The notes beneath the pieces are model-generated. The model worked only from the letters and a program-made list of their open reading frames with translations, was not told the origin of the DNA and did no database searches. From a virus, in IMG/VR virus record IMGVR_UViG_3300047550_002510, positions 1 through 23,872 of that record: a DNA stretch of 23,872 nucleotides, one strand, 5' to 3'. Position 1 is the stretch's first letter. Each line of letters opens with the position of its first letter. The position numbers and the translations under genes were made by a program. This document shows positions 3,514 through 22,849 of the stretch, piece after piece.

Positions 3514-3542
3514 TTGACAAGTTACACATAATTGGTTATGTT
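3514..3542 (+). promoter_or_regulatory. sigma70-type promoter for the large structured RNA
   Basis: TTGACA 3514-3519, 17-bp spacer, TATGTT 3537-3542 (weak -10). The predicted start is near 3549. Confidence 0.55.
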
Positions 3543-3548
3543 GAAGGT

Positions 3549-4003
3549 GTTGTTGGAAATCCGGCGTGACGATGATTCATTTAATAATAATTCCGTCACG
3601 AATCGGTTAGCAATCTTCGATGATTGCTGTAAACGAGGCACGGCACTCGGGGTAAAAGTCCTCCTTGAACCGTAGTTGTATCCATCGTGTCCTAACCTAC
3701 GATGTAAAAAACGACCTTCGGGTAAGATGTTAGGGCGGTCACATACCGTAATTATGTGCGGGCTTAGCGCCGAGACAAGGCTAAGAAGGGTGGTTCTCTT
3801 GTTAGCGGCATATGGGCCGACTATCTGAAACAACTGGTGTATCGGTGGGTACATCACTAATCTGAATTCGGTTAGTAAATAGTAGGCGTGATACACCTAC
3901 TACCACATCTCCACAGTTGCATTAATGTCAACGTGGGGAATCCTCCTTGTGGTTGTTGGTGCGCTGTACCCCCGAAGCGCGTTATAAATCTCGGGGGTTT
4001 TTT
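3549..4003 (+). ncRNA. large structured RNA (~455 nt) of unknown class in the tRNA array
   Basis: A non-coding unit between its own promoter and a strong terminator. Visible helices: 3565-3571/3594-3600, 3609-3615/3622-3628, 3683-3688/3699-3704, 3691-3696/3729-3734 (crossing the previous one, so a pseudoknot), 3714-3716/3721-3723 with a TTCG loop, 3740-3745/3753-3758, 3763-3768/3780-3785, 3806-3809/3816-3819, 3836-3843/3890-3897, 3881-3886/3896-3901 and 3911-3919/3929-3936. No plus-strand ORF is present. Size, pseudoknots and tRNA neighbours resemble the ornate phage RNAs GOLLD and ROOL. I cannot confirm membership, and it may be a new class. Confidence 0.65.
3969..4003 (+). terminator. intrinsic terminator of the large structured RNA
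   Basis: CCCCCGA (3969-3975) pairs with TCGGGGG (3991-3997), followed by six T ending one base before tRNA-Lys. GCGC pairs (3961-3964/3977-3980) cross the stem, so an alternative pseudoknotted fold could let transcription into the tRNAs. Confidence 0.8.
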
Positions 4004-4077
4004 GCTCCTATAGTGTCAACGGTTAGCACAAGAGACTTTTAATCTCTACAGTCTTGGTTCGAATCCAAGTGGGAGCA
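4004..4077 (+). tRNA. tRNA-Lys(TTT)
   Basis: Acceptor GCTCCTA/TGGGAGC, anticodon arm AGAGA-CTTTTAA-TCTCT (TTT), T-arm CTTGG-TTCGAAT-CCAAG, A73. Its 5' end touches the T-run of the preceding terminator. Confidence 0.92.
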
Positions 4078-11050: not shown

Positions 11051-13285
11051 ATGTCGAGCCAGCAGAAACATTCGTCTTACTGGATGGATGAAGATTTGTT
11101 TGAGATGGATGAGGAACAGAACATCGCTCCAGAGGAAGCAAATCTTGCTCGTATCACTCGCCTTTCCGCAGCCCGTCGCGCGGTGGCAAACTTTGTAAAC
11201 ATTCTTACGGGTCGTAACGATATTCCCGTACAGTTTTCGTCGGGACAGAATTCCTATACCGATGGTGATGTTGTTGTCATCGCGGCAGACGATAATCCCG
11301 ACAACTTCGATTCGATGGTGGGTCTGGCCCTCCACGAAGGTTCGCACATCCTTCTGACTGATTTTGATTTCATTCGGTCGGTGGCTGAAGTGGACAAGCA
11401 GAATGATGGTTATCCGACGCGGTATGATTCGTCGTGGGGTGACCTGACTGTTGACCCCAAGAGTGGCAAGAGTGTTCTTCACGCCATTGTGCATCCGTCT
11501 TTGTCGGCAATGTTGCCGGACATCGAAGTTGTGATGCAGACGAGTTATAACAATAACTATGTCAACCACAATGCGCAGAAGTATCAGCCGGTTGCCCGTC
11601 GATTCTTCCAAGACATCAAGCTCATTATGAACATTATGGAAGATCGTCGTATCGACCGTTGGGTGTATCGGAACGCGGGCGGGTATCGTCCGTACTATGA
11701 TGCACTCTACAATCGGTATTTCTTCAATGCCGAGGTTCGTAAGAATCTCAAGTGGAATCCCGAGTGGCGGAAGTTGACGGTTGAGAACTACATCAATCAC
11801 CTGCTGTTTTCGATTCATCCCGACTTCAATCCCGATGCGTTGCCGGGTTTGCGGTATCTTGTCGATATGATTGATATTGCTAACATCGATCGTATTGATG
11901 GTAAGAATGACCGCCGTTGGCGTGTTGAGACATCATATGATGCGATGCCGACTCTGTGGAAGGAAGCCAATCTGATTTACGCGTATATCCTTCGGTTTGC
12001 TGCACTTGGTGAGCAAGAGGAGCAGAAGAAGAACCCGCAGGGCGTTCCGCAGGAAGTGATGGACGAACTCAATAAGACTATCTATTCGACAAGTGATTTG
12101 CCGAATCTTGACCACGGCCCGATGGTTCCGCGGGATGTGGACGATGCAGATAAGACAAAGAGTGGTAAGGAGAAGCCGAAGTCTTTCAATGCGAAGCGTG
12201 GTAACAGTGCCGCGGAGAAAGCACGGCAGGTTGTCAATGGTCAGTTGAAGAAGAAGAAAGTGACGAAGGCCGAGAAGAACGCCGTCGATGCACTTGAATC
12301 GGCACAGGCCAAGATGGTTGACATCAAGGGTGATGGTGTTCCCGGCGGGGAGTGTATGGTGACCCGCAAGATGAGTGAGAAGTTGCTCACGCAGGATTGG
12401 TTCATCTTCTCTCGTCGATGGGACTACACCAACAACGCACGCCGTGAAGCGTTTGCGGCGGGGAAGCGGATGGGACAGATTCTTGTTCACCGTCTCCAAG
12501 TGCGTAACGACCCTGTGGTGACGAAGAACACGCGTCTCCCGCAGGGTGGGCTTGACCGCCGACTCCTTGCACAGCTGGGTATGGATATTACTTCTGTATT
12601 CCAAAAGACACGGGTGGATACTTTCAAGCCCGCAATGTTGCACTTGACTCTTGATGCATCGGGTTCAATGAGTGGACGCAAGTGGGACAAGGTGATGACC
12701 GTTGCTACGGCACTTGCGTATGTTGGTTCGAAGATGCGGAACATTGATACCGTGATTAGTATTCGTGGTGGCAATGACATGCCGATTGTTGCAGTGGTGT
12801 ATGACAGTCGGAGAGATCGTTTCGAGAACTGGATGAAGTGGGCTCCGAGGCTGGAGCCGAGCGGTATGACGCCAGAGGGTCTGTGTTTCAAAGCTACGAT
12901 GGAACTCATCACCGAATGTACCGCTACACACGATGTCTACTTCATCAACTTCAGCGATGGTGAACCAGGCTTCACTCTGGACATTCGTACACCAGACAAG
13001 CGTGGCAAACGCCGTGGTCGGAGAACTTATTACGATAGTGACACTTCGTGTAATTATACGGGTGACCTCGCTGTGAAGCATACCCGTAAGATGGTGCAAG
13101 ATATGTTAGACCACGGCGTGAAGGTCTTGTCGTATTTCATTTCGGAGTCTGACCATCGGTATGGCGTGGCGTATTCACTCAAAGCCTTCCGTAAGATGTA
13201 TGGTGAAGATGCCGTAAATGTGAATGTATCGAACGCTACGGAAGTGTTGCGGACTCTCAATAAAAGACTGACCGCACGGGTGTAA
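11051..13285 (+). CDS. VWA-domain protein with HEXXH site (CobT/MoxR-partner type)
   Basis: Has 744 residues. An N-terminal zincin-like motif HEGSH (H95, E96, H99) is followed by IMEDRRID (196-202), the usual second signature of VWA/HEXXH proteins and a possible third metal ligand. A Lys/Ala-rich linker (about 365-425) leads to a C-terminal von Willebrand A domain with a complete MIDAS start DASGSMSG (D535, S537, S539). Related proteins work with MoxR/CobS-type AAA+ ATPases as chaperone or metal-insertion machines, and such an ATPase follows directly. Codon use is GC-richer than in the tRNA region. Function in the phage is unknown; it could remodel a host or virion complex. Confidence 0.85.
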   Translation: MSSQQKHSSYWMDEDLFEMDEEQNIAPEEANLARITRLSAARRAVANFVNILTGRNDIPVQFSSGQNSYTDGDVVVIAADDNPDNFDSMVGLALHEGSHILLTDFDFIRSVAEVDKQNDGYPTRYDSSWGDLTVDPKSGKSVLHAIVHPSLSAMLPDIEVVMQTSYNNNYVNHNAQKYQPVARRFFQDIKLIMNIMEDRRIDRWVYRNAGGYRPYYDALYNRYFFNAEVRKNLKWNPEWRKLTVENYINHLLFSIHPDFNPDALPGLRYLVDMIDIANIDRIDGKNDRRWRVETSYDAMPTLWKEANLIYAYILRFAALGEQEEQKKNPQGVPQEVMDELNKTIYSTSDLPNLDHGPMVPRDVDDADKTKSGKEKPKSFNAKRGNSAAEKARQVVNGQLKKKKVTKAEKNAVDALESAQAKMVDIKGDGVPGGECMVTRKMSEKLLTQDWFIFSRRWDYTNNARREAFAAGKRMGQILVHRLQVRNDPVVTKNTRLPQGGLDRRLLAQLGMDITSVFQKTRVDTFKPAMLHLTLDASGSMSGRKWDKVMTVATALAYVGSKMRNIDTVISIRGGNDMPIVAVVYDSRRDRFENWMKWAPRLEPSGMTPEGLCFKATMELITECTATHDVYFINFSDGEPGFTLDIRTPDKRGKRRGRRTYYDSDTSCNYTGDLAVKHTRKMVQDMLDHGVKVLSYFISESDHRYGVAYSLKAFRKMYGEDAVNVNVSNATEVLRTLNKRLTARV

Positions 13286-13413: not shown

Positions 13414-14661
13414 GTGGCAAAGACGAAGAAGGTTCGTAAGGTGACGCAGGATGTCGAGAAGGTTGTCGTACTCAAGAACGGCAAGACCATCGACCAGTTT
13501 GGTGAGGTTGTGTCTATCCCGAAGAACAAGATGAAGGTGTTGAAGCAGGGTCACGCCCTTCGTATGGTACATACCAAGACCGGCGGGATGCAGTATCGTA
13601 AGGCCCCGATGTCTCTCTACAATTCACTCGCAAAGACGGCGGTGCCACTTACGCCGGTTGACAATCGCAATGATGAAGGGCACGAGGATGTCGAGCAGTA
13701 TATCCGTGATTCCGTTTCGCTCCGTCCGACTACGCTCATCCTTTCCGATCTCAAGTGGAAGTATCTGATGCGTTCTGTCGTTCGTGGTAAGAACATTATG
13801 ATGACTGGCCCTTCGGGTTGCGGTAAGACTCTCGCGGTACAGAGTGTTGCGAAGGCTCTTGATGGCCGTCCGTTCTTCTACTTCAATCTCGGTGCGACTA
13901 CCGACCCGCGTTCGACGCTTATCGGTAACACGCACTACACGAAGGACAAGGGTACCTTCGTTGCAGACTCTCTGTTCGTTCAGGCGATTCAGACTCCGAA
14001 CGCCATCATTCTAATGGACGAGCTGACCCGTGCTACGCCGGACGCGTGGAACATTCTGATTACCGTACTGGACGAGAACCAGCGGTATCTGCGTATCGAC
14101 GAGAAGCCGGATACGCCGACCGTCAAGGTCGCTAAGGGTGTCACCTTCATCGCTACGGCAAACATCGGTGCAGAGTATACTTCGACCCGTGTGCTTGACC
14201 GCGCAATGCTTGACCGTTTCTCGGCCATCGTAGAGATGGAACCGCTCTCGGTTGAAGATGAGTCGAAGCTTCTCAAGATGACCTATCCGAACCTTGACGG
14301 GCAGACTGTGAAGGCTATTTCGGAAATCGCTGCACATACTCGCACGCAGGTCAAGAGTGATGACCCGAAGGTGACTACTTCGATTTCGTCCCGTCTGACC
14401 GTCGAGATGGCTGGTATCGTTCACGATGGGTTTACTCTCGCTGAAGCGGCTGAAGTCTGTATCTATCCGTTCTTCTCTGATGCGGGTGGTGTGGATAGTG
14501 AGCGTACCTATATGAAGCAGTTGGTGCAGAAGTATCTCCCGACGACCTCGGCGGGTACGGACGCGCCGTGGGTGTCGGGAACGATTGATCCGAACGAGGA
14601 CTTGACGGTGACATTCAGCGGCAATCCGATTGTCAATTCAAACTACGCTACGACAGTTTAA
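13414..14661 (+). CDS. MoxR/CobS-like AAA+ ATPase
   Basis: Has 415 residues, GTG start supported by AGGAG (about 13400-13404). Walker A GPSGCGKT (132-139), Walker B IILMDE (198-203), sensor 1 TAN (248-250) and the DRAMLDRF arginine-finger segment (262-269) are all present. The pattern is that of MoxR/CobS ATPases, which act on partner VWA proteins. The VWA/HEXXH gene immediately upstream is the likely partner. CobS-type genes are common in large phages, where they are not thought to be only cobalamin enzymes. It has its own promoter with the conserved upstream element, so it can be expressed separately from its partner. Confidence 0.88.
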   Translation: MAKTKKVRKVTQDVEKVVVLKNGKTIDQFGEVVSIPKNKMKVLKQGHALRMVHTKTGGMQYRKAPMSLYNSLAKTAVPLTPVDNRNDEGHEDVEQYIRDSVSLRPTTLILSDLKWKYLMRSVVRGKNIMMTGPSGCGKTLAVQSVAKALDGRPFFYFNLGATTDPRSTLIGNTHYTKDKGTFVADSLFVQAIQTPNAIILMDELTRATPDAWNILITVLDENQRYLRIDEKPDTPTVKVAKGVTFIATANIGAEYTSTRVLDRAMLDRFSAIVEMEPLSVEDESKLLKMTYPNLDGQTVKAISEIAAHTRTQVKSDDPKVTTSISSRLTVEMAGIVHDGFTLAEAAEVCIYPFFSDAGGVDSERTYMKQLVQKYLPTTSAGTDAPWVSGTIDPNEDLTVTFSGNPIVNSNYATTV

Positions 14662-21586: not shown

Positions 21587-21681
21587 AGTTTATAATAAAA
21601 GTCGGTATAGAGAAACATTGAGTTTATAATAAAAGTCGGTATAGAGAAACATTGAGTTTATAATAAAAGTCGCTATAGGGA
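21587..21681 (+). repeat. 34-bp tandem repeat, 2.8 copies
   Basis: Units at 21587-21620 and 21621-21654 are identical; a third, partial and slightly changed unit covers 21655-21680. Each has TTTATAATAAAAG, then GTCGGTATAG. AT-rich tandem units in a gene-free region suit an origin, a regulator array or repeated -10 boxes. Confidence 0.9.
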
Positions 21682-22013
21682 AAAAAATTGGGCTCGAGAT
21701 GCAAACCAGCCCCCCGTCCCCTCCCCCATTGCGCAATTGCTCCAGTTCCGTGAAACTCCCTCATCACTTCCCCATCACTTTCATCGTGACGTTCGTGGTG
21801 ACGTTCGTGGTGTGGGGGAGGGGTATCGTGTCACGGGGAACGTGACGTTTCCGATATGGGTGTCACGGGGAACGTGACGTTGGGGAATATTAGAAAATGA
21901 GAAAGACGGGACTCCCGAGGGGGGTTAGTATCAGTAGGGTACTAAATCGAAGAAATGTGATATTTTACCCGAATAGACCCCGAAAGGGGGTGGGGTACCG
22001 TAGGGGGGTAGGG
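21682..22013. other. gene-free region with GTGACGTT iteron-like repeats
   Basis: No convincing ORF. A 12-bp unit GTGACGTTCGTG is duplicated in tandem (21786-21809). A 22-bp unit starting GTGTCACGGGG occurs at 21828-21849 and 21860-21881, 32 bp apart, each containing the inverted pair GTCACG/CGTGAC. CGTGACGTT recurs at 21785, 21841 and 21873. G-runs and a CCCC-GAAA-GGGG hairpin (around 21977-21990) follow. A candidate replication origin or protein-binding array. Confidence 0.55.
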
Positions 22014-22048
22014 GTGTAAGTTGTTGATTTATAAGGACTTACGACCCC
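22014..22048 (+). promoter_or_regulatory. promoter-upstream conserved element, copy 4
   Basis: Invariant TAAGTTGTTGATTT; arms GTAAG/CTTAC intact. It ends at the -35 box of the structured-RNA promoter, with no coding gene on either side. Confidence 0.75.
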
Positions 22049-22077
22049 TTGACTTTGGGGTGGAAATTAGTTATTAT
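22049..22077 (+). promoter_or_regulatory. sigma70-type promoter for the second structured RNA
   Basis: TTGACT 22049-22054, 17-bp spacer, TATTAT 22072-22077 followed by TAG. The predicted start is near 22084. Confidence 0.75.
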
Positions 22078-22083
22078 TAGGGG

Positions 22084-22489
22084 TAAGTGGGAGGAATGCC
22101 AAAACCTCTCCCGTCTGACCCCCTCGGTTGGACGGCTGATTGACAACTGAACGACGAAACACGACAGACCTTCACGGATGACCCATTCCCGTGTCTCTGT
22201 CGATGACGTAAACGTATGAAATCAAACGGGTTCTGGGGACTCCCGATATTCAAAGTCCCCGCCCACAATTTGGTGGGGGTCGGTCTGATCAAAGAAAGAC
22301 GAAACGATACCCCTTCGGGAGAGGAAACCCGTAGAAACCTACGCGACTCATCGACAACCAACCTTACGGCGGTGAGTCAAAGACAGAAAGGTAGGTAGTA
22401 AAGACCCCGCCTACGCAACTTGGCTAAACAAGAGGGTACAGTCCGTGGCAGACCACTGCAGGGGTCACCTACTAAAACGGTGACATTCT
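22084..22489 (+). ncRNA. second large structured RNA (~405 nt) leading into tRNA-Glu
   Basis: No credible ORF but many helices: GGGGACT/AGTCCCC (22235-22241/22254-22260), CCCAC/GTGGG (22262-22266/22273-22277), GTAG-AAAC-CTAC (22331-22342), GACTCA/TGAGTC (22345-22350/22373-22378), GTAGG/CCTAC (22391-22395/22410-22414), GCAG-ACCA-CTGC (22448-22459) and GTCACC/GGTGAC (22464-22469/22479-22484). The last ends six bases before tRNA-Glu. The transcript starts at an element-bearing promoter. It shows no obvious sequence similarity to the 3549-4003 RNA. RNase P and tmRNA hallmarks are not visible. Class unknown. Confidence 0.6.
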
Positions 22490-22562
22490 GGCCCTATCGT
22501 CTATCGGTATAGGACGCGACCCTTTCAAGGTCGAGAGACGGGTTCGATTCCCGTTAGGGCTA
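22490..22562 (+). tRNA. tRNA-Glu(TTC), isolated second copy
   Basis: Acceptor GGCCCTA/TAGGGCT (G1.U72), anticodon arm CGACC-CTTTCAA-GGTCG (TTC), T-arm ACGGG-TTCGATT-CCCGT, A73. About 12 kb from the main array, at the 3' end of a structured RNA. Confidence 0.92.
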
Positions 22563-22600
22563 CTCACCACACGATACACCAACAACACAAGGACAACACA

Positions 22601-22849
22601 ATGGCTAAGGTTCGTAAGTTCAACTACAAGATTGTGGTCGAGGTTCCCCGTGACCTTCGTACCCGTAACTCGACTGATGTGACGGTAGACACCTTCACGC
22701 AGTTCATTTACGACCGCAAGAACAAGGAGTCCGCCCTTCGTAAGTTCGGTTCCGTTGAGAACCTTCGATACCTTCGTGGGCAGGGGTTCAGTCTGACCCG
22801 TTCGGAGTTCAAGAAGTTCCGTAACAAGTTCGCCATCGAGCGAGTCTAA
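22601..22849 (+). CDS. basic hypothetical protein, 82 aa
   Basis: AAGGACAACACA precedes ATG 22601. Strand-rich N-terminus (KFNYKIVVEVPRDL), then a basic helical part with SALRKFGSVENLRYLRGQGFSLTRSEFKKF. RNA or DNA binding is possible from charge only. Probably read from the structured-RNA/tRNA promoter. Confidence 0.68.
   Translation: MAKVRKFNYKIVVEVPRDLRTRNSTDVTVDTFTQFIYDRKNKESALRKFGSVENLRYLRGQGFSLTRSEFKKFRNKFAIERV

Follow-up and report, generated by a model that had tools for sequence, protein, structure and literature searches.

What is the 406-nt stretch without genes that lies between a promoter and a solitary tRNA gene in this phage, and what might it do? The window (the whole stretch of DNA analysed) is a virus record of 23,872 bases with 32 tRNA genes. 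The leader considered here (22084-22489) runs from a sigma70-like promoter (TTGACT-17-TATTAT, 22049-22077, + strand) to a lone tRNA-Glu(UUC) gene (22490-22563, +). An inverted-repeat element (GTAAG...CTTAC, 22013-22053, +) ends at the -35 box. It recurs in the window at three other promoters (13300, 16135 and 18258), and a TTGAC box adjoins every copy. In the related phage G001 an equivalent inverted repeat stands ahead of five promoters (61241, 65071, 67439, and 75623 and 78003 on the minus strand). In both phages the spacing upstream of the -35 box is near-constant, and the inverted repeat is likely to be the binding site of one regulator. The 60-aa and 94-aa ORFs listed within 22084-22489 are not credible because their stretch is mostly absent from relatives. 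An earlier sequence-only reading had described about 405 gene-free nucleotides behind a promoter with a conserved upstream element and ending just ahead of tRNA-Glu, and on all three points it was right. The operon that follows the leader looks early, judging from its small genes and the sigma70-like promoter. Further upstream, the window carries three tandem 34-bp repeats (21587-21688, beginning TTTATAATAAAAGTCGGTATAGAG) that faintly resemble single-subunit RNA polymerase promoters or origin iterons, adjoined at 21786-21881 by a 22-bp sequence that occurs twice in identical form (GTGTCACGGGGAACGTGACGTT) and by related repeats, GTGACGTT. No copy of any of these repeats was found in G001.

Related loci were identified in IMG/VR: L004 in the 166.6-kb G001, L003 in G002 and L034 in the 93.9-kb G003. 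The first two were found by searching with the 82-aa protein encoded just after the tRNA, and L034 by a search that started from a 744-aa protein encoded in that region. L003 is a near-duplicate of L004 (99.8% identical over the 12.2 kb compared). The order promoter, RNA, tRNA-Glu and 82-aa gene is the same in the window and in L004, L003 and L034. The entire promoter is kept in L004, and its -10 part is visible in L034, whose contig ends there. The leader measures 134 nt in L004, about 125-130 nt in L034 and 406 nt in the window. Window positions 22065-22212 match L034 at 72% (E 4e-14). By sequence L004 matches the window in short blocks only, and it was recovered with a covariance model that combines the window and L034 (23 bits, E 0.0007 over 223 kb). 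The 744-aa protein (window 11051-13285) has a weak CobT-type VWA match, is encoded near an AAA ATPase gene (13414-14661) and is rare among GenBank phages (2 records).

The conserved portion of the leader is a structured RNA element of ~130 nt (22084-22212, +), with homologues at L034:20205-20329(-) and L004:5754-5878 (covariance-model matches of 136 and 23 bits). In all three phages it starts within a few nucleotides of the predicted transcription start. The element consists of five helices arranged in three hairpins. The first hairpin (P1, 22089-22110, +) has a 6-bp stem, whose letters differ yet pair in all three phages, and a 10-nt loop, AAUGCCAAAA (loop consensus NAYGCCAAAA). The second (P2, 22111-22135, +) is variable in length, with 10 bp in the window and 8 bp in L034, and is closed by CC/GG. 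It is followed by a conserved unpaired linker, CUGAUUGANAACUGA (22136-22150, +), in which CUGAUUGANAAC is identical in the three phages except at position N; the last three letters are CGA in L004. The third hairpin (P3, 22154-22209, +) comprises a base helix, a 9-bp helix, a CCUU/UC internal loop, an upper helix and the loop AUGACCCAUUC. Five of its pairs are compensatory relative to L034, and the two-part hairpin with its AUG..CAUUC loop is present in L004 too. The stems of both P1 and P3 also pair in L004, with other letters, when written out by hand. The letters that are kept are mainly unpaired (the GCCAAAA loop, the CUGAUUGANAAC linker and the loop AUG(2-3 nt)CAUUC), and the variable letters lie in the stems. 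In L004 the GCCAAAA loop is carried not by the first hairpin but by the one adjoining the linker, and the 5' half of the element has therefore been rearranged.

Could such a fold arise by chance from a G+C-rich spacer with no RNA function? The single-sequence z-scores are modest (-1.8 to -2.7) and would fit this explanation; of 100 shuffled versions, 99 fold less well than the whole 406 nt (z -2.7). The first 129 nt folded alone give three hairpins, however, and the same three are found in L034. In the two-sequence alignment of the window and L034, nine base pairs have changed on both sides and 95% of cells are paired, versus 83% in shuffles; none of 500 shuffles matches either the pairing percentage or the count of both-side changes. 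When the partner is slid by 1-3 columns, pairing falls to 30-43%, in a test that is small (two sequences) and whose structure, taken from one of them, favours the unslid version in pairing percentage. With compensatory changes and conserved loops in three phages, chance folding is disfavoured for 22084-22212, and for the leader as a whole it is a very remote explanation; for the 3' 277 nt alone it may still apply. The element is a real, conserved structured RNA, limited to approximately 22084-22212. The sequence-only reading had proposed a structured RNA of 405 nt with at least seven helices, a claim to be judged by covariation among homologues. Compensatory changes are indeed present in the first ~130 nt, where five helices are supported. 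The claim does not extend to the last 277 nt: over half of the proposed length is single-sequence prediction, and the leaders of the relatives are only ~125-134 nt long.

These 277 nt (22213-22489, +), which separate the conserved element from the tRNA, are specific to the window and have no counterpart in L004 or L034; about ten nucleotides or fewer fill this position in the relatives. They fold weakly better than shuffles (z -1.8), and the helices drawn in them are unsupported predictions. The second-best covariance-model match of the window (9.9 bits) falls here, at 22226-22335 (+), and corresponds to the P1-P2-linker part of the element. Its E-value is 0.17 window-wide and 0.0021 for the insert alone. 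This match suggests a degenerate tandem copy of the element, although aligning the letters by themselves gives no significant similarity (p 0.14).

No Rfam 15 covariance model matches the leader above its gathering cut-off, the tRNA giving the only matches, and GenBank phages searched for leader homologues likewise match at the tRNA only. A first pattern scan of IMG/VR returned the known loci together with matches that have neither tRNA nor hairpin and were taken as chance, and a stricter scan returned the known loci only. A P3-to-tRNA pattern scan of the same database gave one chance match, without a tRNA. Scanning genomes for the motif yielded nothing convincing by the model (best E 0.17); many of the matches have one recurrent sequence in common, which reads as coding. 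The covariance model finds no match in the distant relatives Microcystis phage Mel-JY01, LR756508 and Flavobacterium phage immuto, and no strong copy beyond the first in either the window or G001. The covariance-model search suggested by the sequence-only reading gave no family from Rfam, while the model built from homologues did recover L004. The element is new, in that neither Rfam 15 nor the phage records searched contain a match. Three specific candidates were rejected. Kissing of the P1 loop with the P3 loop (GGAAUG/CAUUCC) can be drawn for the window alone and is not preserved in L034. A hammerhead-like core fails in that CUGAUUGA is one base too long and is without a GAAA partner in L034. 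An attenuator or a riboswitch with a terminator finds no terminator-like site ahead of the tRNA.

A further gene-free RNA of the window, of ~455 nt at 3549-4003, was compared with the leader. The tRNA array of G001 contains its homologue at the equivalent position (L026:9025-9464), 21 of its 100 predicted pairs are kept through both-side changes relative to that homologue, and it has no match in Rfam or GenBank phages. Like the leader, it has its own promoter (a promoter-like site at 3514-3542), lies directly upstream of a tRNA and is conserved with covariation. The leader had been thought to repeat, with a different sequence, the structured RNA and tRNA layout of 3549-4077. The sequences do differ, with no similarity to 3549-4003 found by blastn of the leader against the window, and both are conserved RNAs placed ahead of a tRNA. 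However, in both the window and G001 the 3549-4003 RNA ends in a stem followed by six U, abutting tRNA-Lys, whereas the leader is without such a terminator-like feature. This stem is missing from the output of the terminator scan, whose upper limit for loop length is exceeded here. If the predicted terminator works, the 3549-4003 RNA is not fused to tRNA-Lys. The likeness between the two layouts is superficial only.

In pattern scans of the + strand, nothing resembling a terminator turned up from the transcription start to the tRNA, either in the window or in L004. The layout, alike in the relatives, implies that leader and tRNA-Glu are co-transcribed. The primary transcript should therefore hold both, and RNase P, which cleaves tRNA precursors at the tRNA 5' end, would be expected to cut at 22489/22490. 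The conservation of loops on variable stems suggests a protein partner. A transcript of this kind would begin with the three-hairpin RNA, followed by tRNA-Glu and then a run of small genes. A probable RNase P cut at the 5' end of the tRNA would then turn the leader into a non-coding RNA of its own, with a fixed 3' end. The likeliest role of its conserved loops and linker would be to bind a protein, from either host or phage, and the stems would serve as interchangeable scaffolding. We favour this reading, in which the leader of an early-looking operon supplies an RNase P-released, protein-binding RNA that contains the ~130-nt element, but tentatively, as its chances appear somewhat less than even. 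Release by RNase P is plausible; that the RNA is then stable by itself, binds protein and acts in trans is what we infer from the layout and the pattern of conservation. The occurrence of the same element in the same place in three phages favours such a released RNA. Against it, there are three loci only, two of which belong to phages that hardly differ elsewhere, and leader length varies threefold.

Alternatively, the structure could be passive, shielding the 5' end or keeping the pre-tRNA open to RNase P without any specific partner. Stems that vary freely and a length ranging from ~125 to 406 nt are in keeping with this, but the loops and linker are kept better than a passive structure requires, and the other lone tRNA of G001, a tRNA-Lys, has no leader of this kind. 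We consider a passive leader unlikely. The lone tRNA-Glu is itself a paralogue that differs from the tRNA-Glu of the array (2653): 73 of its 74 positions are identical to L004, as compared with 57 of 76 aligned columns for the array copy. Each phage encodes tRNA-Glu(UUC) twice, first in the array and again as a lone gene (2653 and 22490 in the window; 47719 and 67635 in G001), and the two genes are distinct and separately conserved. The lone tRNA-Lys(UUU) of G001 is likewise a second copy, and this phage also encodes a tmRNA (L025:18242-18582 (-), RF00023, 143 bits) with the predicted tag GNYNLALAA.

The promoter-proximal position of the element would suit a role in the nascent transcript equally well. 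The put RNA of phage HK022, ~70 nt with two stem-loops, occurs at both early promoters, putL lying just downstream of one of them (PMC9378689). By analogy, the leader might act in cis to modify RNA polymerase during transcription, such that leader, tRNA and operon are read through. In each of the three phages the element does begin within a few nucleotides of the predicted start, its first features are two adjacent hairpins, and it heads a run of small genes. On the other hand, it has three hairpins and no sequence match to put was found. Where put is present at both early operon starts, only one of the four window promoters with the shared upstream element has the leader element, and neither the window nor G001 has a second strong copy. 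There is also no Rfam match, and no downstream terminator is known to need antitermination. Such action on RNA polymerase is the main rival to the released RNA, but a doubtful one.

The first gene after the tRNA (22601-22849, +) encodes a basic protein of 82 aa (pI 10.5-10.6), 79% and 62% identical to its homologues, with no match in Pfam, PHROGs, NCBIfam or PDB sequences and no significant structural match to its fold. The leader could conceivably be the binding site of this protein, in autoregulation or in an N/nut-like system. From the end of the 82-aa gene onward G001 and L034 are 99.9-100% identical, while leader, tRNA and 82-aa gene differ together (~12-48% per 50-column block), as a cognate pair would. 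It looks like the cassette was replaced by recombination, although chimeric assembly is possible, as contig G003 ends right where the sequences differ. However, the window leader has its nearest counterpart in L034, and the window tRNA and ORF have theirs in L004. Leader and ORF therefore need not travel together, which argues against tight pairing, and no fold is recognised for the protein; a cognate pair seems improbable.

Another tRNA-linked phage RNA is the 'RNA C/D' of T4. GOLLD and ROOL are phage non-coding RNAs often found near tRNA genes, and many GOLLD members exceed 800 nt (PMC12286853). They are distinct, large RNAs, and no Rfam model matches the leader element. In Escherichia coli, 3'ETS-leuZ is a 53-nt 3' trailer that is cut out of a tRNA precursor by RNases and acts in trans as a sponge for sRNAs (PMC8166272). 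The released leader would resemble it in being cut from a tRNA precursor by tRNA-maturing enzymes and then acting alone, but it is a structured 5' leader with conserved loops, and of phage origin. Structured non-coding RNAs linked to phage tRNAs, the kind proposed here, have precedents in GOLLD and ROOL (PMC12286853) and in pre-tRNA spacers (PMC8166272). A broader proposal, which we regard as quite unlikely, is that the element represents a new family of early phage RNAs, processed from pre-tRNA by the RNase P of the host, modular and protein-binding, exchanged among nearly identical phages together with tRNA-Glu and the basic protein, and in some lineages growing by tandem duplication.

That phages so nearly identical carry unlike versions of leader, tRNA and gene hints that diversity is being selected for here. 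Should the leader be freed and functional, a tRNA would serve the phage in making the 3' end of a non-coding RNA, and two RNAs would be obtained cheaply from one transcript. This would also bear on why a second tRNA-Glu(UUC) is kept outside the array.
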